Assembly (NCBI GenBank): GCA_030765065.1 | Contig: CM060989.1 | Span: 58,170,001-58,234,000 of the forward strand | DNA length: 64,000 nucleotides | Source: Deroplatys truncata | Taxonomy: Eukaryota; Arthropoda; Insecta; Mantodea; Mantidae | Direction: 5' to 3' | In this document: one piece after another, positions 1,816 to 56,416 of the stretch | Layout of the letters: each line of letters opens with the position of its first letter | Numbering within the stretch: position 1 is the first letter of the stretch | Program-made: the position numbers and the translations under genes | Notes under the pieces: model-generated | The model's database searches: none | The model's input: only the letters and a program-made list of their open reading frames with translations | Told to the model about the DNA's origin: nothing

Positions 1816-4147
1816 TTTTTTTACTTTCTCTACTACGTATAGCAAGTAGGGGAAGTATTGTATTCCACCCAAAAATTCGATACCGAGATTAAACCGGAAA
1901 TACATGTTTTGAGGCCCCCTGAATAAAAAAAAACATTTTTGGAAACATGTCCGTGTGTGTGTGTCTGTGAACAGCATAACTCAGAAACGAACAGACGGAT
2001 AAACACCAAACATGGTATTTAAGATCAGTATCTTCCAGAGATGCGACACGAAGGTTTTCAAGAAAATCGCCCCACCCCAGACTACCCTTTACATGGAACA
2101 TATTTTGAAAATTTTAATTTTCTCAAAAATGGCTCTAACGATTTTGATTAAAATATCACATGTTTAAGATATTTTCATGACAAATGAAATGTATATCTCG
2201 AATTTTCTGGAAATGTCTCCAAAAGTGTTCTTCATTGTGAACGACTTTTGCATAAATGGTAAACCATAAGAGATAGACAAAATTTACCTACACAAAAATG
2301 TACATCGCGTTAAAATACACAATTTATGTCATATACATTTTTTTTGTTGAGTGAACCATTTTCGAGATATTGCTTGTTATTCCCTTAAATTTTTGCAGTA
2401 CTTATACTTTTTCTCAAATTCGTTATTCATTTTTACTTTCTCTACTACGTATAGTAAGTAGGGGAAGTATTGCATTCCACCCAAAAATTCGATACCCAGA
2501 TTTCACCGGAAATACATGTTTTGAGACCTCCTGAATCCAAAAAAAGCATTTTTGGAAACATGTCCGTGTGTGTGTCTGTGTGTCTGTGTGTGTGTGTGTG
2601 TCTGTGTGTGTGTCTGTGTGTGTGTCTGTGTGTGTGTGAACAGCATAACTCAAAAACGAACAGTCGGATAAACACCAAACTTGATATTTAGGTTCAGTGT
2701 CTTCCAGAGATGCGACACGAAGGTTTTCAAGAAAATCCCCCCACCCCAGACTACCCTTTACATGGAACATTTTTCGAAAATTTTAATTTTCTCAAAAATG
2801 GCTCTAACGATTTTGATTAAAATATCATATGTTTAAGATAATGTCATGAGAAATGAAATGTATATCTCGAATTTTCTGGGAATGTCTCCAAAAGTATTCT
2901 TCATTGTGAACGACTTTTGCATAACTGGTAAACCATAAGAGATAGACAAAATTTTACTACACAAAAAATGTAGATCGCCTTAAAATACACAACTTATGTC
3001 ATATACATTTCTTTTGTTGAGTGAACCGTTTTCGAGATATTGCTTGTTATTCCCTTAAATTTTCCAATACTTATACTTTTTCTCAAATTCGTTATTCATT
3101 TTTTTATGTCTTGGACTTGCAAAGAGAATGGAATGCGCCGCATAGCAACCAGCGTTAAAATATTTGACTATCGCTTAAAAGCTACCATATTCCCCTTTCA
3201 TCTACATGAAAATTACCAATAAGATTGACATCTCGATATCTCGATTAACATGAAGCATATGGAGAATAGGCGTTTGTAAAAATAGATTGTACAAGAGTAG
3301 AGAAAGTCATGTGAGTGTAACACATCAGATTTTTACTTTCTCTACTACGTATAGTAAGTAGGGGAAGTATTGTATTCCACCCAAAAATTCGATACCGAGA
3401 TTTCACCGGAAGTATATGTTTTAAGGCTCCCTGAATCCAAAGAAAAACATTTTTGAAAACATGTCCGTGTGTGTGTGTCTGTGAACAGCATAACTCAGAA
3501 ACGAACAGACGGATAAACACCAAACTTGGTATTTAGTATCAGTATCTTCCAGAGATGCGACACGAAGGTTTTCAAGAAAATCGCCCCACCCCCGACTACC
3601 CTTTACATGGAACATTTTTCGAAAATTTTAATTTTCCCAAAAATGGCTCTAACGATTTTAATTAAAATATCATACGTTTAAGATATTTTCATGACAAATG
3701 AAATGTATATCTCGAATTTTCTGGAAATGTCTCCAAAAGTGTTCTTCATTGTGAACGACTTTTGCATAAATGGTACACCATGAGATAGACAAAATTTAAC
3801 TACAAAAAAGTAGATCGCGTTAAAATACACAATTTATGTCATATACTTTGTTTGTTGAGTGAACCATTTTCGAGATCTTGCTTGTTATTCCCTTAAATTT
3901 TCGTTATTCATTTTTTTGTCCTGATAATGCAAAGAGAATGGAATACTCCACATAGCAACCAGCTCTTAAAATATTTGACTATCGCTTAAAGGCTACCAAT
4001 TCCCCTTGCATCTACAAGAAAATTAGCAATAAGATTAACATCTCGATATCTCGATTAACGTGAAGCATATGGAGAATAAGCGTTTGTAATAATGGTTTGT
4101 ACAAGAGTAGAGAAAGTCATGTGAGTGTAACACATCAGATTTTTTTA
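1816..4147 (-). repeat. Array of three CTTTCTC-A units with outer TTTTTTTA duplication
   Basis: Three subfamily A units lie head to tail: 1824-2429 (lacking about 230 bp of one end), 2436-3329 (complete) and 3336-4139 (complete). Units 1 and 2 meet at the oligo-T that is normally internal to the element. Units 2 and 3 are separated by a single TTTTTA. The whole array is bracketed by TTTTTTTA at 1816-1823 and 4140-4147. Unit 2 holds a long TG tract (about 2565-2638) at the usual internal position. Confidence 0.85.
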
Positions 4148-14542: not shown

Positions 14543-14661
14543 TTATTATTATTATTGTAGGGACCCTGCCCTCTGCCTGTCATGCCTCCTTGTTCGGCCG
14601 CTCTCTCTCCTCTCACCTCATTGCTCCCTCCCGGGGCTTAGGCACAAAAGGTCTGCTTAGA

Positions 14662-15220: not shown

Positions 15221-16459
15221 TATGTGATCAAAAGCATCCGGACACCCCCACAAACATACGTTTTTATCTTAAGTGCAATGTGCTGCCACCTATTGCCTGG
15301 TGCTCATTATCCGCGACCTTAGTAGTCATTAGACATCGTGAAACAGCAGAATGGGACACTCCGTGGAACTCACGGACTTCGAACGTGGTCAGGTGATTGG
15401 GTGCCACTTGTGTCAGAAGTCTGTACGCGAGATTTCCACACACCTAAACATCCCTAGGCCCACTGTTTCTGATGTGATAGTGAAGTGGAAACGTGAAGGG
15501 ACATGTACAGCACAAAAGTGTACAGGCCGACCTCGTCTGTTGACTGACAGAGATCGCCGACATTTGAAGAGGTTTGTAAAGAGTAATAGACAGATATCTA
15601 TCCAGACCAGCACACAGGAATTCCAAACTGCATCAGGATCCACTCCAAGTACTATGAAAGTTAGGCATGAGGTGAGAAACCTTGGATTCCATGGTCGAGC
15701 GGCTGCTCATAAGCCACACATCACGCAGGAAAATGCCAAACGACGCCTCGCTTGGTGTAAGGAGTGTGAACATTACACGATTGAACAGTGGCAAAACGTG
15801 TGGAGTGACGAATCACGGTACACAATGTGGCGATCCGATGGCAGGGTGTGGGTATGGCGAATGCACGGTGAACGTCATCTGCCAGCGTGTGCAGTGTCAA
15901 CAGTGAAATTCGGAGGTGGTGGTGTTATGGTGTGGTCGTGTTTTCCCTGGAGGGGGCTTGAACCCCTTGTTGTTTTGCGTGGCACGATCACAGCGCAGAC
16001 ATACATTGATATTTTAAGCACCTTCTTGCTTCCCACTGTTGAAGAGCAATTCGGGGATGGCGATTGCATCTTTCAACACGATCGAGCACCTGTTCATACT
16101 GCACGGGCTGTAGCGGAGTGGTTACACGACAATAACATCCCTGTAATGGACGGGCCTGCACAGAGTTCTGACTTGAATCCTATAGAACACCTTTGGGATG
16201 TTTTGGAACGCCCACTACGTGCCAGGCCTCACCGACCTATATCGATACCTCTCCTCAGTTCCGCACTCCGTGAAGAATGGGCTGCCATTCCCCAAAAAAC
16301 CTTCCAGCACCTGATTGAAAGTATGCCTGCGAGAGTGAACGCTGTCATCAAGGCTAAGGGTGGGCCAACACCATATTGACTTCCAGCATTACTGATGGAC
16401 GGCGCCACGAACTTGTACGTATTTCTGCCAGGTGTCCGGATAATTTTGATCACGTAGTA
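15218..16459 (+). mobile_element. Tc1 element with both inverted ends
   Basis: A 1242-bp element. The left end reads TATGTGATCAAAAGCATCCG and the right end, on the minus strand, reads TACGTGATCAAAATTATCCG. Both continue into GACACC. A TA follows the right end at 16460-16461. The left flank has been replaced by the CA microsatellite. It belongs to the same family as the copy at 27343-28512. Confidence 0.92.
15351..16379 (+). CDS. Tc1 transposase, uninterrupted ORF
   Basis: The 342-codon frame starts MGHSVELTDFERGQVIG and has normal Tc1 length. The N-terminal paired-type helix-turn-helix region spans about residues 5-110 and includes PRPTVSDVIVKWKREG. A GRPR AT-hook-like motif lies near residues 59-62. 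The catalytic DD34E residues are all present: Asp153 in WSDESRY, Asp244 in FQHDRAPVH, and Glu279 in NPIEHLW, with 34 residues between the last two. The glycine block [10 protein letters not shown] is intact. Oddities are loss of one Val before WSDES relative to the sister copy, Gly where that copy has Trp (MDGPA versus MDWPA), and Ser for Pro in QSSDLNP. The protein would excise and reinsert the element in the nucleus; whether these changes leave it active is unknown. Confidence 0.9.
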   Translation: MGHSVELTDFERGQVIGCHLCQKSVREISTHLNIPRPTVSDVIVKWKREGTCTAQKCTGRPRLLTDRDRRHLKRFVKSNRQISIQTSTQEFQTASGSTPSTMKVRHEVRNLGFHGRAAAHKPHITQENAKRRLAWCKECEHYTIEQWQNVWSDESRYTMWRSDGRVWVWRMHGERHLPACAVSTVKFGGGGVMVWSCFPWRGLEPLVVLRGTITAQTYIDILSTFLLPTVEEQFGDGDCIFQHDRAPVHTARAVAEWLHDNNIPVMDGPAQSSDLNPIEHLWDVLERPLRARPHRPISIPLLSSALREEWAAIPQKTFQHLIESMPARVNAVIKAKGGPTPY

Positions 16460-21085: not shown

Positions 21086-21280
21086 GTATTAATAATTTGG
21101 AGGGCTATATTATTGTTCTACATTGACATTACCAGACACATTGTTGTTTACATCACTGTTGGCTGGTAGCTTTGCTAGCCACGAGTAGTGGGGGACGGCG
21201 TCACTCTCAGTTAGGATTCTATGAGGAGCGGACCGCGTGTGTAAGCCGGGCTTTAGATCGGTGGACTTCTCCCATCTTTA

Positions 21281-22109
21281 CTTTCTCTACTACGTATAGT
21301 AAGTAGGGGAGTATTGTATTCCATCCAAAAATTCAATACCGAGATTTCACCGGAAATATATGTTTTGAGACCCCTGAATAATAAAAAAAAACATTTTTGG
21401 AAACATTCCGTGTGTGTGTCTGTGAACAGCATAACTCAGAAACGAACAGTCGGATAAACACCAAACTTGGTATTTAGGTTCAGTATCTTCCAGAGATGAG
21501 ATACGAAGGTTTTCAAGAAAATCCCCCACCCCAGATTACCCTTTACATCGAATATTTTTAGAAAATTTTAATTTTCTAAAAAACGATTCTAACGATTTTG
21601 ATTAAAATATCATATGTTTAAGATATTTTCATGACAAATGAAATGTATACCTCGAATTTTCTGGGAATGTCTCCAAAAGTATTCTTCACTGTGAACGACT
21701 TTTGCAAGACTGGCAAACCATAAGAGATAGACAAAATTTTACTACACAAAAAATGTAGATCGCGTTAAAATACACAATTTATGTCATATACATTTTTCTG
21801 TTGAGTGAACCATTTTCGAGATATTGCTTGTTATTCCCTTAAATTTTTCAATACTTATACTTTTTCTCAAATGGGAATTCGTTATTAATTTTTTTGTCCT
21901 GGTAAAGCAAAGAGAATGGAATACTGCACATAGCAACCGGCTCTTAAAATATTTGACTATCGTTTAAAGCCTACCAATTTCCCTTCCATCTACAAGAAAA
22001 TTAGCAATAAGATTAACATCTCGATTAACATGAAGCATATGGAGAATAAGCATTTGTAAAAATAGTATGTACAAGGGTAGAGAAAGTCATGTGAGTGTAA
22101 CACATCAGA
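21281..22109 (-). repeat. Complete CTTTCTC-A copy (829 bp)
   Basis: Both ends are present: CTTTCTCTACTACGTATAGT at 21281 and GTGTAACACATCAGA ending at 22109. Flanks are TCTTTA (21275-21280) and TTTTTA (22110-22115), a candidate 6-bp target duplication with one mismatch. The internal TG tract is short. Confidence 0.88.
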
Positions 22110-22339
22110 TTTTTAATAATGTAGGAACCCCAAACGTTTGGGAAATACATCTAGGAATGTGTGAATAGATTTGTGTTATGGATTTTGTGTAGTAAAACCC
22201 ACGCCTTCCTCTAACCTCCACGCCACGTTTCGGTCCTCTGCAGCCAAATAAGAATACGCCCCTCATTGTGCGTGCTGGGTTTTAGAAATTAATTTAATTT
22301 TCATGTGAACTTTTAGGTCATCTACCCAGCATGTAACAA

Positions 22340-33565: not shown

Positions 33566-33575
33566 ATGAAAAAAA

Positions 33576-34272
33576 TCTGATGTGTTACACTCACTTGACT
33601 TTCTCTACTCTTGTACAAATTATTTTTACAAACGCTTATTCTCCATATGCTTCATGTTAACCGAGATATCGAGATGTCAATCTTATTGCTAATTTTCTTG
33701 TAGGTGCAAGGGGAATATGGTAGGTTATAAGCGATAGTTAAATCTTTTAAGCGCTGGTTGCTATGTGGCGCATTCCATTCTCTTTGCATGTCCAGGACAT
33801 TAAAAAATGAATAACGAATTTGAAAAAAGTACAAGAATTGAAAATTTAAGGGAATAACAAGCAATATCTCGAAAACGGTTCACTCAACAAAAAAATGTAT
33901 ATGACATAAATTGTGTATTTTAACGCGATCTACATTTTTTGTGCAGTAGAATTTTGTCTATCTCTTATGGTTTACCAGTTTACCAAAAGTCGTTCACATG
34001 AACAATACTTTTGGAGACATCCCCAGAAAATTCGAGATATACATTTCAGTTGTCATGAAAATATCTTAAACATATGATATTTTAATCAAAATCGTTACAG
34101 CCATTTTTGAGAGAATTATAGTTTTCGAAAAATCTTCCATGTAAAGGGTAGTCTGGGGTGGGGGGATTTTCTTGAAAACCTTCGTGTCGCATCTCTGGAA
34201 GATACTGAACCTAAATACCAAGTTTGGTGTTTATCCGACTGTTCGTTTCTGAGTTATACTGTTCACAGACAG

Positions 34273-34317
<45 letters not shown>

Positions 34318-34442
34318 CATGTTTCCAAAAATGATTTTTTGGATTCAGGGGTCTCAAAACATATATTTCCGGTGAAATCTCGGTATCGAATTTTTGGGTG
34401 GAATACAATACTTCCCCTACTTACTATACGTAGTAGAGAAAG
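33576..34442 (+). repeat. Complete CTTTCTC-A copy (867 bp)
   Basis: It runs from TCTGATGTGTTACACTCACT to ACGTAGTAGAGAAAG and contains a long CA tract. It sits in the A-rich junction between the two inverted transposase fragments 32966-33565 and 34443-34860. The same junction without the insertion is seen at about 46385-46395. Confidence 0.88.
34272..34316. repeat. (CA)n tract inside a CTTTCTC copy
   Basis: About 21 CA units occupy the fixed position between GTTCACAGACAG and GGACATGTTT. Other copies hold 3 to about 40 units, partly interrupted as CTGTGTGTG, at the same place. Confidence 0.95.
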
Positions 34443-34860
34443 TAATAAAGTGTATGCAACAAACACCATGTATAGGTAGAACTGAAAGAAAACACCAGGT
34501 GAGAAATTAATTCAATTTCGGATATTGAACTCTCGAGTATGAACGAAAATTTCCTCAGAAGATGCCAGAAATGTGTGGATAGAGAAGGATAAATGCAGCA
34601 TCCAACATGTCTTATGATAAGGCATGTGCTTACTATCATTGTAATTGTAAATATGAGAAGGCGAAGCGGTTGCGGGGAGACTATATATGTTTCGGCGGGA
34701 GTTTGAACTGCGGTGGCCGGTGCGTTTGTAGCCGTATGGTGGCCAAGTGTGAATGATTAGCACCGTAGATCTGTAAATTGCAGGTGGAAATCTCCCGAGC
34801 ATATAAAAAGTTCCAAATTGAATAAAATACCCCATATCACATACAATATGAAAATTCATC
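34443..34860 (+). mobile_element. 3' end of the decayed DDE transposon, inverted arm
   Basis: The sequence AAAGTGTATGCAACAAAC, then TCGAGTATGAACGAAAATTTCC, and TTTCGGCGGGAG near 34692 match the 3' region of the element at 46800-47060 and the complement of 46120-46390. It faces away from the copy at 32966-33565, so the locus has two copies with 3' ends outward. Confidence 0.65.
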
Positions 34861-35026
34861 CAGTCTTTATGAATAAATAGGATATAAAAAGTGTTAAACT
34901 AAGCAAACGATAGTGCAGCGTCTGGCGTCAGCATTTAAAATGGCGTGACATGACCCAATGGAAGAGCACCATGGGTAATAGTGATTTTGAAATAAAGACA
35001 CCTATTTCCCTTTACCGCTATAATTA
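34861..35026. other. Short unclassified spacer
   Basis: AT-rich spacer between the transposon arm and a CTTTCTC array. Nothing is recognised. Confidence 0.4.
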
Positions 35027-36816
35027 CTTTCTCTACTACGTATAGTAAGTAGGGGAAGTATTGCATTCCACCCAAAAATTCGATACCGAGATTTCACCGG
35101 AAATACACGTTTTGAGACCTCCTGAATCCAAAAAAAGCATTTTTAGAAACATGTCCGTGTGTGTGTCTGTGTGTGTGTGTGTGTGTGTGTCTGTGTGTCT
35201 GTGAACAGCATAACTCAAAAACGAACAATCGGATAAGCACCAAACTTGGTATTTAGGTTCAGTATCTTCCAGAGATGCGACACGAAGGTTTTCGAGAAAA
35301 TCCCCCCACCCCAGACTACCCTTTAATGGAACATTTTTCGAAAATTTTAATTTTCTCAAAAACGGCTCTAACGATTTTGATTAAAATATCATATGTTTAA
35401 GATATTGTCATGACAAATAAAATGTATATCTCGAATTTTCTGGGAATGTCTCCAAAAGTATTCTTCATTATGAACGACTTTTTCATAACTGGTAAACCAT
35501 AAGAGATAGACAAAATTTTACTACACGAAAAATGTAGATCGCGTTAAACTACACAACTTATGTCATATACATTTCTTTTGTTGAGTGAACCGTTTGCGAG
35601 ATATTGCTTGTTATTCCCTTAAATTTTCCAATACTTATACTTTTTCTCAAATTCGTTATTCATTTTTACTTTCTCTACTACGTATAGTAAGTAGGGGAAG
35701 TATTGCATTCCACCCAAAAATTCGATACCGAGATTTCACCGGAAATACATGTTTTGAGACCTCCTGAATCCAAAAAAAGCATTTTTGGAAACATGTCCGT
35801 GTGTGTGTCTGTGTGTGTGTGTGTCTGTGTGTGTGTGTGTCTGTGTGTGTGTGTGTGTCTGTGTGTGTCTGTGTGTGTGTCTGTGAACAGCATAACTCAA
35901 AAACTAACAGTCGGATAAACACCAAACTTAGTATTTGCGTTCAGTATCTTCCAGAGATGCGACACGAAGATTTTCAAGAAAATCCCCCCACCCCAGACTA
36001 CCCTTTACATGGAACATTTTTCGAAAATTTTAATTTTCTCAAAAATGGCTCTAACGATTTTGATGAAAATATCATATGTTTAAGATAATGTCATGAGAAA
36101 TGAAATGTATATCTCGAAATTTCTGGGAATGTCTCCAAAAGTATTCTTCATTATGAACGACTTTTGCATAACTGGTAAACCATAAGAGATAGACAAAATT
36201 TTACTAAACAAAAAATGTAGATCGCGTTAAAATACACAACTTATATCATATACATTTTTTTTCTTGAGTGAACCGTTTTCGAGATATTGCTTGTTATTTC
36301 CTTAAATTTTCCAATACTTATACTTTTTCTCAAATTCGTTATTCATTTTTTTATGTCCTGGACATGCAAAGAGAATGGAATGCGCCACATAGCAACCAGC
36401 GATAAAATATTTGACTATCGCTTAAAAGCTACCATATTCCCCTTGCATCTACAAGAAAATTACAAATAAGATTGACATCTCGATATTTCGATTAATATGA
36501 AGCATATGGAGAATAGGCGTTTGTAAAAATAGATTGTACAAGAGTAGAGAAAGTCATGTGAGTGTAACACATCAGATTTTTTTATGTTCTGGACATGCAA
36601 AGAGAATGGAATGCCCCACATAGCAACCAGCGTTAAAATATTTGACTATCGCTTAAAAGCTACCATATTCCCCTTGCATCTACAAGAAAATTATCAATAA
36701 GATTGACATCTCGATATCTCGATTAACATGAAGCATATGGAGAATAGGCGTTTGTAAAATTAGGTTGTACAAGAGTAGAGAAAGTTATGTGAGTGTAACA
36801 CATCAGATTTTTTTTA
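35027..36816 (-). repeat. CTTTCTC-A copy with a second complete copy inserted in it
   Basis: The outer copy is 35027-35662 plus 36585-36807. The inner copy is 35669-36576 and is complete (CTTTCTCTACTACG to ACACATCAGA). The insertion point is the oligo-T that precedes TATGTCCTGGACATGC inside the outer copy. It is now TTTTTA on the left (35663-35668) and TTTTTTTA on the right (36577-36584). Both copies contain long interrupted TG tracts (about 35155-35205 and 35798-35882). Confidence 0.9.
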
Positions 36817-37400
36817 TTTATTTTCCGGAGTCCAGCGAAACCAAATATTAAATTACGCTACGCCAAGCCATTACTGCGTTACCCGAATAAACTTGCTTTC
36901 AAGTAATTAATATCGTTCACTACATGACCGAAAAACTCTTACATTGATCTACATCGCCGCGACTGAACCGAGTTGAATATGTGAGAGGCGCTGATTGAGT
37001 TGAAAATGCTGAATCCTAACTGCTCTAACAATGCCGATTCCAGGAATGAGGCGCGTCGATACGCGCTTTTTTATTTCGTTACGCTCCGCCTCGCGGTTTA
37101 GGACTTTCTCTCTTAATAATATGTAAGACATGTCTGGGAAACAACATGAGTCAATTGGGGAATTCAATGTTCCACCGGCATGTTGTCTCAGTAGCTCAAT
37201 GGTTAGAGCAACCGCACGAAGAGCGGGAGAACCGTGTTCAAATCCAATGTATTATTTCTCGCTAGCTACATGTTGCCAAATTTACCTTCACTGCTGGCTA
37301 ATTCTGAGAAATCCTAATTTATCTAAGGGTTCTATCCAGGAATTCCTATTCAGGAATTTAGAACTCTTACTTTAGATTTCACTAACAGCTGAACCTGGCA
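36817..37400 (+). repeat. Dispersed repeat H, copy 1 (with SINE insertion)
   Basis: The segment CCGGAGTCCAGCGAAACC through GCGCGTCGATACGCGC, CGCTCCGCCTCGCGGTTTAG and CGCTAGCTACATG is matched in reverse order on the opposite strand at 39861-39629 and 38772-38540. It contains a SINE-3 head (37180-37245) absent from copy 2. Its coding potential is not recognised. Confidence 0.7.
37130..37245 (+). mobile_element. tRNA-derived SINE, family 3, fragment
   Basis: GGCATGTTGTCTCAGTAGCT, AATGGTTAGAGCAACCG (A box) and GTGTTCAAATCCAATG (B box) match the tRNA-like head of SINE family 3. Confidence 0.65.
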
Positions 37401-38539: not shown

Positions 38540-38772
38540 CTTATTTAAAACCTTATTTAATATTTTGTGTAAAAAATGGAACTGGAAATGAGGGAAAGAT
38601 TAAAAAGATTAAATTCCTAGTAGAAGTAGATAAATGAGGAATTCTCAGAATTAGCCAGCAATTGTAGCTAGCGGGAAAGAATAATTTAGGGAGGGATATA
38701 TGTAAATAGTAAACCAATAATGTGTTACTATTAAAACGGAAAGCCCTAAACCCGAGGCGGAGCGTAATGAAA
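38540..38772 (-). repeat. Repeat H, copy 2, distal part
   Basis: The complement matches repeat H copy 1 from CGCTCCGCCTCG toward CGCTAGCTAC and TGCTGGCTAATTCTGAGAA, without the SINE-3 insertion. It is separated from 39629-39861 by the CTTTCTC element. Confidence 0.7.
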
Positions 38773-38779
38773 TAAAAAA

Positions 38780-39621
38780 TCTGATGTGTTACACTCACAT
38801 GACTCTCTCTACTCTTGTACAAACTATTTTTACAAACGCTTATTCTCCATATGCTTCATGTTAATCGAGATATCGAAATGTCAATCTAATTGATAATTTT
38901 CTTGTAGATGCAAGGGAAATATGGTAGTTTTAAGCGATAGTCAAATATTTTAACGCTGGTTGCTATGTGGCGCATTCCATTCTCTTTGCATGTCCAGGAC
39001 ATAAAAAAAATGAATAACGAATTTGAGAAAAAGTATAAGTATTGGAAAATTTAAGGAAATAACAAGCAATATCTCGAAAACGGTTCACTCAACAAAAGAA
39101 ATGTATATGACATAAATTGTGTATTTTAACGCGATCTAATTTTTTGTGTGGTAAACTTTTGTCTATCTCTTATGGTTTACCAGTTATGAAAAGTCGTTCA
39201 CAATGAAGAATACTTTTGGAGACATTCCCAGAAAATTCGAGATATACATTTTATTTGTCATAAAAATATCTTAAACATATGATATTTTAATCAAAATCGT
39301 TAGAGCCATTTTTGAGAAAATTAAACTTTTCGAAAAATCTTCCATGTAAAGGGTAATCTGGGGTGGGGGGATTTCCTTGAAAACCTTCGTGTCGCATCTC
39401 TGGAAGATACTGAACCTAAATACCAAGTTTGGTGTTTATCCGACTGTTCGTTTCTGAGTTATGTTGTTCACAGACACACAGTCACACACACGGACATGTT
39501 TCCAAAAAGGCTTTTTTTGGATTCAGGGGATCTCAAAACACGTATTTCCAGTGAAATCTCGGTATCGAATTTTTGGGCGGAATACAATACTTCCCCTACT
39601 TACTGTACGTAGTAGAGAAAG
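38780..39621 (+). repeat. Complete CTTTCTC-A copy with a dated target site (842 bp)
   Basis: It runs from TCTGATGTGTTACACTCACA to GTACGTAGTAGAGAAAG, flanked by TAAAAAA on both sides (38773-38779 and 39622-39628). The empty site in repeat H copy 1 (complement of about 37066-37080) has a single TAAAAAA, so this is a 7-bp target duplication and fixes the element's ends. Confidence 0.92.
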
Positions 39622-39628
39622 TAAAAAA

Positions 39629-39861
39629 GCGTGTGTCGACGCGCCTCATTCAGGATTCAGCATTCGGAACTCAATCCATGCCTCTCATGTATAACTTATT
39701 TGACTCGCGGCGATGTAAGTCAATGTAAGTGTTATTGGATCAACTAGTTAACGATATTAATTACCTGAAAGTAATAATTATTCGGGAAACGGTTTAATAG
39801 ATTGACTTGGCGTAACGTAATTTAATACTTCGTTTTACTGGACTGAGGAAAATAAATAAAA
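39629..39861 (-). repeat. Repeat H, copy 2, proximal part
   Basis: Its complement corresponds to copy 1 from CCAGCGAAACC-like sequence through the CGCGGCGATGTA region to GTCGACGCGCCTC. The two copies of repeat H are in inverted orientation, about 2 kb apart. Confidence 0.7.
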
Positions 39862-46119: not shown

Positions 46120-47060
46120 TGGTACATTCTACAGTGCTTTTCCTTCACACTGTGTCCGCAGCACAGCTGCTTGCGCGCCGGTCGTTGTAGCTTTGACTCC
46201 CGCCGAAACAATAATAATATCCCCGCAACTGCTCTCGCAGTTGCAATTATAATTACAATGATAATAAGCACATATGTTATCGTAGAAGAAGTTAGAAATG
46301 CTGTCCTCTATCCAAACATTTCTAGCATCTTCTCAGGAAATTTTCATCTAGTTCTTACAATGTATGGGGTTTGTTGCATATAATTTATTTTTCGAGTAAT
46401 CATCAGAGTTCAGGTAAATTTCTGTAATTGCATTTTGCGAAATGATGAATAACTGACCCACGCTTAATATTCTTCTCTGACGATGCATGGTTCCATTTAC
46501 AAGGTTATGTTTCGTCGCAAAATAACAGTTATTGGAGCACAGAGAACCCGATTTTACACACGGGATTCACTTGCATGACGCGCAATGCATACCGAATAAT
46601 AGGACCTATAGTTTTGAACAAACAATAAATATAGATACGGAATGTCCTACACCACTTTTTGAACAGCTGACTGACGAATATCACTCTGGATTTTTCCAAC
46701 AAGACTCTATACCGCGCATACCGCTGATGAGTGGTTAAATTTAATTCAGGAAATGTTTGAATATAGGGTAATTAGTAAAAGATTATTGCTCTCACGATCC
46801 CCTGACTTAACTGTATGCAACAAATCCTAATAGACTGGAAGAAGTAAAATAAAACATTAGACGAGAAATGCACTCAATTTAGGATATGTAAATCTTGAAT
46901 GCAAATTTCCTGAGAATATACCAGAAATGTGTGGACAGATGAGGACATTTCCAACATCACTTATGATAAGACATGTGCCTATTATCACTGTACTTGTAAC
47001 TATAACCATAACAACGTGAAGTGATTGCGGGAATAATAAACCTTTTTCGGCGATAGACCG
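46120..47060. mobile_element. Foldback composite: two decayed DDE transposons, 3' ends outward
   Basis: The minus-strand copy (about 46390-46120) carries GCAACAAACCCCATACATTG, TTTCCTGAGAAGATGC and TTTCGGCGGGAG. The plus-strand copy begins at about 46391 (TCGAGTAATCATCAGAGTTC) and ends with related TTTCCTGAGAATATACC and CGGGAATAATAAACC. The junction between them is the same one seen at 33565/34443. Confidence 0.65.
46440..47000 (+). pseudogene. Decayed Tc1/mariner-superfamily transposase
   Basis: Translation fragments include EQTINIDTECPTPLFEQLTD and SGFFQQDS (second catalytic region), then NLIQEMFEYRVISKRLL, SPDLTVC and ATNPNRLEEVK. The SPDLT region lacks its FYLW continuation because of a deletion. 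Frames change several times. It is the same transposase as at 32966-33565. Confidence 0.65.
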
Positions 47061-47671: not shown

Positions 47672-47677
47672 TTTTTA

Positions 47678-48529
47678 CTTTTTCTACTACGTATAGTAAG
47701 TAGGGGAAATATTGCATTCCACTCAAAAATTCGATACTGAGATTTCACCGGAAATACATGCTTTGAGGCCTCCTGAATCCAAAAAAAGCATTTTTGGAAA
47801 CATGCCCGTGTGTGTGTCTGTGTGTCTGTGAACAGCATAACTCAGAAACGAACAGTCGGATAAACATCAAACTTGGTATTTAGGTTCAGTATCTTTCAGA
47901 GATGCGGCACGAAGGTTTTCAAGAAAATCCCTCCACCCCAGATTACCCTTTACATGGAACATTTTTCGAAAATGTTAATTTTCTCAAAAATGGCTCTAAC
48001 GATTTTGATTAAAATATCATATATTTAAGATACTTTCCTGACAAATAAAATGTATATCTTGAAGTTTCTGGGAATGTCTCCAAAAGTATTCTTCATCGTG
48101 AACGACTTTTGCATAACTGGTAAAGCATAAGAGATAGACAAAATTTTACTACACAAAAAACGTAGATCGCGTTAAAATACACAATTTATGTCATATACAT
48201 ATTTTTTTTGTTGAGTGAACCATTTTCGAGATATTGCTTGTTATTCCCTTAAATTTTCCAATACTTATACTTTTTGTCAAATGGGAATTCGTTATTCATT
48301 TTTTTTTGTCCTGGTAATGCAAAGAGAATGGAATACTTCACATAGCAACCAGCTCTTAAAATATTTGACTATCGCTTAAAGCCTAGCAATTCCCCTTGCA
48401 TCTACAAGAAAATTAGCAATAAGATTAACATCTCGATATCTCGATTAACAAGAAGCATATGGAGAATAAGCGTTTGTAAAAATAGTTTGTACAAGAGTAG
48501 AGAAAGTCATTTGAGTGTAACGCATCAGA
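47678..48529 (-). repeat. Complete CTTTCTC-A copy (852 bp) inside a transposase
   Basis: It starts CTTTTTCTACTACGTATAGT and ends AACGCATCAGA. TTTTTA stands at both flanks (47672-47677, 48530-48535). Removing the element and one TTTTTA restores the coding context LDFYVWGHLK, the usual form of this transposase block. Confidence 0.92.
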
Positions 48530-48535
48530 TTTTTA

Positions 48536-55087: not shown

Positions 55088-56416
55088 CGAGATGTGATCA
55101 AAATGTTTCCGGAATGGCTTCACAACAATGCTGACGCTGAGATTTCTTTAATTCTTACCCAGACTGTACATGCAGCGTTCCTTACCGATAAAAATGAGAG
55201 GTCATGTGACTTCCTGTGACCATGCAGTGACAAGGTAGAAGCTCTGAAGTGAACACGTGTTTTGCCTGTGCTGCGATTTTTCCGCGTAGCAAAAATGTCA
55301 GATTACGAAGAACAAAGAAGGAACATCAAATTTTGCTTTAAACTCGGCAAAACTGCAACAGAAGCCTATGCAATGTCAAGAACAGCTTATGGGGAGGTAG
55401 TTATGGGCAAAACTCAAGTATTTGAGTGATTTTCGAAATTTAAAAGTGGTGTGACATCAGTTAAAGATGAAGATCGTTCGGGGCGACCCTGTGCCAGTAA
55501 AACTGATGAAAATATCAATCAGGTGAGGGAAATGGTCTTAAATGATAGGCGCATCACAACAAGAAACCTTTCTGACTCATTAGGACTCTCCTTTGGAAGT
55601 GTTCAAAGCATTTTGAAAGACAATTTGGAGATGAGAAGAATTGCCGCCAAGTTCTGCCCCGCCTGTTTTCAAATGACCAAAAGGAAAGCGTGTGATTGCC
55701 TCCACCGATCTTAAAGAACAGTTAAAAATGACCCAAAGTTTATGGAGAAAATTATTACTGGTGATGAAACATGGATTTATGGGTACGATCCAGAAACGAA
55801 GCAACGATCTTCACAATGGAAGAGTCCTTCATTTCCACGCCCGATAAAGGCCAGACAAGTTCGATCCAAAGTGAAGTCAATGATGATTGTGTTTCTTGAC
55901 ATTAAAGGCATTGTACATAAGGAATTTGTGCCACAGGGTCAAACAGTGAATCAAGTGTTCTACAAACAAGTGCTGCAAAGATTAAGGGAGAATGTGCGAC
56001 GCAAACGGCCGGAGAAATGGAGGAGTGGTGACTGGTTCCTGCATCATGACAATGCGGCCGCGCACAAAGCCCTTTCTGTTTGCCAATTTTTGGATACAAA
56101 TAGGATGAATACTGTTCCCCGTCTCGCCTATTCTCCAGATCTGGCACCAGCGGACTTTCTTCTTTTCCCGCGATTTAAAATGCGGCTCCGAGGACACCGT
56201 TTTGAGGACATTGATGTCATCCATCGCGAATTGCAGAAGGCTCTGAACATGTTGAAAGAAGAGAACTTCCAGAGGTTCTTCCAGCAGTGGCAGAAGCGCT
56301 GGGACAAGTGAATCAACTCCCAAGGAGACTACTTCGAGGGTGACAGTGCAGATTAGACAAAACAAACTGTTGTGTAGTATTTATGACGTCATTCCGGAAA
56401 CGTTTCGATCACACCT
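55088..56416 (+). mobile_element. Mariner element, third lineage, with both ends
   Basis: Inverted ends are AGATGTGATCAAAATGTTTC on the left and AGGTGTGATCGAAACGTTTC on the minus strand at the right; both continue CGGAATG. TA stands at 55086-55087 and 56417-56418. The element is 1329 bp, with two extra bases at the left tip. Confidence 0.9.
55295..56354 (+). pseudogene. Mariner transposase, near full length, two stops and one frameshift
   Basis: It starts MSDYEEQRRNIKFCFKLGKT with the N-terminal helix-turn-helix. Catalytic regions are ITGDETWIYGYDPETKQRSS, LHHDNAAAHKA and YSPDLAPADFLLFPRFK (DD34D). Trp of FEWFSKF is TGA near 55427, a frameshift lies near 55665-55680, and a TGA at about 56309 replaces Cys before INSQGDYFEG. 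Apart from these the gene is continuous, so it is the youngest-looking mariner coding region here. Confidence 0.9.

Follow-up and report, generated by a model that had tools for sequence, protein, structure and literature searches.

The 64,000-nt stretch of Deroplatys truncata DNA analysed here (the window) carries at 38773-39628 a non-coding repeat copy whose ends are fixed; it lies within one of two copies of a sequence termed repeat H. The longest ATG/GTG/TTG frames that overlap it comprise 89 aa, mainly in the flank, and 77 aa. On the minus strand, the element begins with ACTTTCTCTACT and finishes with AGTAGAGAAAGTCATGTGAGTGTAACACATCAGA. The initial annotation had described a non-autonomous transposon of about 850 bp whose ends are fixed by empty sites, and this is well supported, both by the family consensus, which was built from 41 full copies and has a core of 850 nt, and by the second, uninterrupted copy of repeat H (Table 1), in which the empty site contains one T6 run, whereas the filled site has T6 on either side. 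The copies diverge from the consensus by a median of 3.3% (range 1.7-8.6), in a set that is biased because 20 of the fetched loci were chosen as the best matches to the window copy, and conservation is 97.9% and 98.5% at the termini versus 96.0% in the middle of the element.

Table 1. Features of the element copy in repeat H, and further copies and sites of the family in the window.
Feature	Position	Strand	Basis or remark
Element copy core	38780..39622	-	5' A at 39622 to CAGA 3' end at 38780; blastn copies
5' asymmetric terminal inverted repeat ACTTTCTCTACT (AGTAGAGAAAGT on +), element nt 1	39611..39622	-	inverted-repeat analysis
5' hairpin, one arm being the 5' inverted repeat	39589..39622	-	folding energy
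GT-rich microsatellite-like tract near the element 5' side	39468..39497	-	sequence, consensus
3' subterminal inverted repeat (ACTCTCTCTACT on +), differing from the consensus arm by one change	38802..38813	-	22 nt from 3' end
Small 3' palindrome ATGTG-N7-CACAT, adjoining the 3' inverted repeat	38784..38800	-	sequence and folding
A6 (element strand T6) past the element 3' end	38774..38779	.	empty-site comparison
A6 (element strand T6) past the element 5' end	39623..39628	.	T at 39622 complements the first A of the element
Empty target site TTTTTTA (its complement is the uninterrupted site), other repeat-H copy	37067..37073	+	alignment across junction
Full copy that interrupts a host copy (35024-35667 and 36577-36813) at the self site CA-T7/8-ATG	35663..36582	+	blastn
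Full copy inside decayed, presumed mariner/Tc1-like transposase sequence	47672..48534	+	blastn, split-piece translation
Tandem full copies 2430-3334 and 3330-4145 with adjoining partial copy 1817-2434	1817..4145	+	blastn
Full copy with just two T at left; paralogous empty site 46341-46494	33570..34449	-	blastn, empty-site search
Full copy flanked by ...CATCTTT at left and T5 at right	21277..22114	+	blastn, junction reading

The two ends are linked by an asymmetric inverted repeat, which in the consensus is a perfect 12-mer with ACTTTCTCTACT at nt 1 and the complementary arm 22 nt short of the 3' end, and none of 2,000 Markov controls of the same composition reached an inverted repeat of 12 bp. 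The inverted repeat noted earlier at the ends is thereby confirmed, and the earlier positions of the ends were also right, but their orientation was reversed with respect to published Helitron2 elements, i.e. CTTTCTC marks the 5' end. The 5' arm would sit a few nucleotides inside the terminus if some bases of the T run were counted as element. This first arm pairs with the bases adjacent to it downstream, and the hairpin so formed has, in its consensus form, an energy of -5.7 kcal/mol (z -3.9) that was equalled by none of 200 shuffles. The 3' arm is directly followed by ATGTG-N7-CACAT before the CAGA end, a palindrome that is energetically weak, with z values of -1.1 and -0.7 for two stretch lengths.

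Within the window, blastn gave 64 matches to the element, 26 of them at least 290 nt long and 9 spanning 800 nt or more of the query. The family or older relatives match 18,658 of the 64,000 window bases, and since the identical search covered 787 of 69,411 bases in loci fetched for their Rep matches, the window looks unusually rich in this family. The element's own T run (CA-T7/8-ATG) has been hit repeatedly, which gave nested trains at 35024-36813 and 1817-4145 in the window and at the loci L010, L011 and L013. The copy at 47672 splits a sequence that we take to be mariner/Tc1-like between SPDLNPLD and FYVWGHLKS, and the separately translated pieces join at this motif; the claim of the initial annotation that removal of the copy restores a transposase frame does not hold, as the left host piece is rich in stops. 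Elsewhere in the window, a 345-aa open frame at 15342-16376 corresponds to a Tc1/mariner transposase (HTH_Tnp_Tc3_2 and DDE_3), and a 198-aa frame at 55715-56308 contains a partial mariner transposase domain (Transposase_1).

At its junctions, the element meets T runs on both sides, from which a TAAAAAA/TTTTTA duplication had originally been deduced as the rule. The junction counts cover 77 5' and 60 3' ends, namely those with A or GA at the junction and a flank of 60 nt; the table of intact copies retained 43 of 82 5' ends, since 36 lacked a 3' end within 700-1,000 nt and another 3 ended in something other than GA. Of 90 5' ends, 86 have the left A, but beyond the right T run the 60 3' ends show A 37 times, G 16 times and C 7 times. 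As the left A is nearly constant and the base beyond the right run is variable, the A belongs to the element as its first base, and a role of the A of TTTTTA as duplicated target base was rejected. The left run has five or more T in 56 of the 77 5' ends and fewer in 21.

Could the element nevertheless represent a new kind of DNA transposon, with near-terminal inverted repeats and a fixed target duplication of 6-7 bp of the TTTTTA type? The three examples with equal T(n)A on each side in the initial annotation would agree with this, as would the 32 of 43 copies that have TTTTT as the five bases on each side. However, the flank tabulation revealed an exact T(n)A duplication in just 6 of the 43 intact two-ended copies and equal run lengths in 7, which disposes of the duplication as a rule, and the right run continues with G or C in 23 of 60 cases. 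In addition, the left 5-mer was repeated exactly at the right in none of the 7 copies in which it differs from TTTTT, and the 3' inverted repeat is subterminal and not terminal. A fixed 5-bp duplication was rejected on the same 7 informative copies, although in one of them, the copy at locus L014, TGTTT is found on both sides with an offset of one extra T. The duplication of fixed length that characterizes transposons with terminal inverted repeats is thus not observed, and we regard such a new transposon kind as very improbable.

What happens at the target can be read most directly where empty sites are available. Of the 50 copies that could be used, 22 have local candidates for the empty site, among them several tandem artefacts or poor alignments; for the loci L011 and L027, a search for empty sites gave none. 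At clean self sites of the type CA-T7/8-ATG, three copies have T5 and T7 on the two sides, one has T6 and T7, and another T5 and T9, and an ACA-T6-GTG site became T5 and T6. At 34449 in the window, the empty site TTTATTTTTC became TTTATT on one side and TTTTTTTC on the other. The self-site pattern occurs genome-wide at 14,638 left and 8,489 right junctions. A count by eye gave, for the first 100 left junctions, T5 in 75, T6 in 12, T7 in 4, T8 in 1, T4 in 1 and T2 in 3 cases, with 4 interrupted runs, and, for the 76 readable ones among the first 100 right junctions, T7 in 45, T8 in 12, T6 in 6, T9 in 6 and T10 in 1 case, with 6 interrupted runs. Local empty self sites, of which there are at least 34, mainly have T7 (18) or T8 (10). 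These counts together indicate that about five T are found at the left and approximately the run of the empty site at the right, with a net gain of about five. A T4 site gave just 7 right junctions, with T7 in 2, T4 in 2 and other forms in 3, which counts against this reading. In a typical insertion, the element thus enters a T run, has about five T at its left and about the whole target run at its right, and 4-7 T are usually gained.

The gained T residues may stem from the target or from the element. A true short target duplication could arise from two nicks that are set by the edge of the T run, the one at the first T and the other usually five T further on, an explanation that we hold to be quite possible, at somewhat under even odds. 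It would account for the sharp five-T left edge, for a right run that resembles the empty site, and for the TGTTT repeat of L014. When filled, the site of L014 reads TATGTTT ... TTGTTTTAATTATA. Each of the six paralogous empty sites (L049-L054, 74-84% alike) has just one stretch rich in T, followed by AATTATA or a sequence close to it, and the G of TATG occurs in only three of them (L049, L053 and L054). The L014 junctions and empty sites favour a duplication in this copy, with the three empty sites that lack the G as evidence to the contrary. If the two-nick duplication were true, integration of Helitron2/Helentron elements would include a staggered cut, perhaps made by the LINE-like endonuclease of Helentrons, and such a cut would contradict the published statement that HINEs do not modify the target site.

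On the other hand, the right run falls short of the left one in 7 of the 43 copies, with an interrupted right run in 5 of these 7, and this counts against the duplication of a partial run, because duplication does not predict such runs. Furthermore, the right side at 34449 has T alone where a copy of TTATT would include an A, and at L012 the A of the left ATATT is missing at the right. A tail of 4-6 T that belongs to the element explains most of these counter-cases, to which the missing 5-mer repeats also belong. An element-owned 5' TTTTTA was rejected: the left flanks of L014, window copy 34449 and L012 follow the empty or related host sequence to the last bases and do not read TTTTT.

Which kind of element has such ends? 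According to passages of Bao and Jurka (2013; PMC3627910), elements of the Helitron2 group have one terminal and one subterminal inverted repeat, 5' and 3' hairpins, and a T-rich target. Helitron2 repeats are 8-15 bp long and start 0-2 bp from the 5' end, and here a perfect 12-bp arm starts at nt 1. The second arm of Helitron2 elements lies about 20-30 bp from the 3' end and directly upstream of a hairpin, an arrangement that is also found here, with a weak hairpin (z -1.1), and the 5' hairpin involves the 5' arm (z -3.9) as it does in Helitron2. Insertion into T runs agrees as well, since passages of a Fusarium study (PMC5148889) place Helitron2 insertions between TTTT and T or C, with the reservation that 21 of the 77 5' ends have fewer than five T at the left. 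Compared with PMC3627910, there are two differences, namely that A is here the first base after the T run, and that CRe-1/2/3 Helitron2 elements are reported with duplications of about 7-19 bp in place of a T-run junction with T gain.

The HINE or DINE-1 elements (INE-1) of the Helentrons are similar in many respects. The passages concerned in Thomas et al. (2014; PMC4067079) describe subTIRs, an inverted repeat nested in the 5' subTIR, a 3' stem-loop, microsatellites, and T-rich targets with a variable number of T and no target-site change. Our non-coding element shares the subTIRs, the inverted repeat with its 5' arm in the subTIR, the stem-loop, the microsatellite and the T-rich targets with a variable T number, and specifically has identical subTIRs of at least 11 bp and a 3' stem-loop, short and weak, within the last 60 bp. 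It differs from the mite HINEs in that source by its subTIR distances, which are 2-4 and 38-60 nt in the mite, and from the HINEs reported there in general by the usual net gain of 4-7 T, as opposed to an unmodified target site. The insect Helitrons Hel-2 and OnHel-2 likewise have 5' and subterminal inverted repeats and a microsatellite downstream of the 5' repeat, but they are reported in PMC4344730 with 5'-TC and 3'-CTRR termini and flanking AT, which were not found here.

Because the inverted repeats, the 5' and 3' hairpins and the GT tract are published features of non-autonomous Helitron2/Helentron elements, we assign the family to that kind. Most likely, with a probability of about 0.85, the copy is a non-autonomous rolling-circle transposon of the Helitron2/Helentron (HINE/DINE-1-like) type that is highly abundant and here lies on the minus strand. 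Points against this assignment are the weak 3' hairpin, the net gain of T and the subTIR distances in comparison with HINEs, and the Rep motifs and scarce OTU proteases described below. The kind as such is already known, and the family is a real and very large example of it. The statement of the initial annotation that no named family has this combination therefore fails at the level of the kind, as the descriptions of Helitron2 (PMC3627910) and HINE/DINE-1 (PMC4067079) fit the element; a literature search for the end letters CTTTCTCTACT gave nothing on transposons among the matches listed.

Mechanistically, an element of this type would carry the terminal signals alone, that is the 5' repeat with its hairpin, the partner repeat just internal to the 3' hairpin, and a 3' terminus that abuts a T run. 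By analogy with its family, it would be mobilised in trans by a Rep/helicase that is encoded elsewhere in the genome, and would be copied as single-stranded DNA by a rolling circle. Its 5' end usually joins the run five T after the first, about the whole run stays at the 3' side, and there is usually a gain of 4-7 T. The roughly 100,000 exact 3' ends and the 14,638 left self-site junctions represent a natural data set on how T residues are shared between element and target at the two ends, an issue left unsettled by Thomas et al. (PMC4067079).

A retroposon, SINE-like or derived from a LINE, that integrates by target-primed reverse transcription at an A/T run would also have T-run (A-run) targets, a T run at one end and a net gain of T, and could produce the TGTTT on both sides of L014 with its offset of one T. 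Against this, fixed 5' and 3' ends are balanced, with 90 versus 82 in the fetched set, whose loci are mostly best matches to the window copy and thus favour complete copies, and with 18 versus 22 within the window, so that there is no excess of one end of the kind expected from 5' truncation. An Rfam search of 38600-39800 gave no match above chance (best E 0.6, under the gathering score), for which reason a SINE or Pol III RNA was rejected. Paired 12-bp inverted repeats with a 5' hairpin are not known as features of retroposons. A retroposon origin is therefore very improbable.

A genome search with the Helitron_like_N profile (PF14214) gave 152 matches (291 candidates, 150 scored). Among the matches listed, 30, counted by eye, are in open frames of more than 1,000 aa, and 18 are in Rep-domain frames of 2,108-2,543 aa (e.g. 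C9:66068003, C5:94826907 and C1:248257786). These 18 long frames, which have nearly all near-equal scores, apparently represent a recently active autonomous Helitron/Helentron family, and judged by their length they are the likelier, putative partners. The Rep motif is visible in 12 of the 20 fetched Rep loci, all of which have L before P (11 RGLPH and 1 RGLPQ), while a Helentron partner of the DINE-1 group would have RGSPH, i.e. S at this position, and a C-terminal AP endonuclease. L before P is the canonical Helitron form according to the relevant passage of Thomas et al. (PMC4067079), and these 12 loci are therefore probably not the partner. One might instead conclude from the 12 motifs that the partner is a canonical Helitron (Helitron1) and not a Helitron2/Helentron, but the 5'-TC and CTRR-3' ends and the A|T insertion of Helitron1 are absent from the family, its ends fit Helitron2, and the 18 listed long frames are better candidates by length, which makes a Helitron1 partner highly unlikely.

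Two further approaches to the partner were abandoned. A search for OTU proteases, which some Helentrons have and which were considered as a Helentron marker, gave just 4 matches, none of them near the Rep matches listed, and was rejected as uninformative. A link between ends and Rep from coordinates was also rejected: a 5' end at C1:33200524 lies 5.5 kb upstream of the Rep match C1:33206011 (2,343-aa frame), but a single 5' end near a Rep frame is unsurprising where the genome has some 100,000 ends. At L038:1148-2418, the first 334 nt of the element adjoin and face a Helitron Rep frame (PF14214) on the opposite strand, which is either a chance insertion or a rearranged partner.

As to the abundance of the family, the genome searched comprises 4.29 Gb in 818 contigs and contains the exact 38-nt 3' end 99,739 times, divided between the two strands as 49,754 and 49,985, and the reversed control does not occur; a 20-nt 3' motif had no match in viral contigs. 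For grasshopper repeatomes, PMC7486953 gives Helitron proportions of 7-20%. Among the matches listed, exact 3' ends are far denser at C1:14.0-16.2 Mb than at 0.2-14 Mb. At C1:20511-119398, near the contig start, the 3'-end motif recurs every ~3,409 bp with some units absent, which represents a tandem array, perhaps a subtelomeric satellite, of a ~3.4-kb unit that bears the 3' end of the element.
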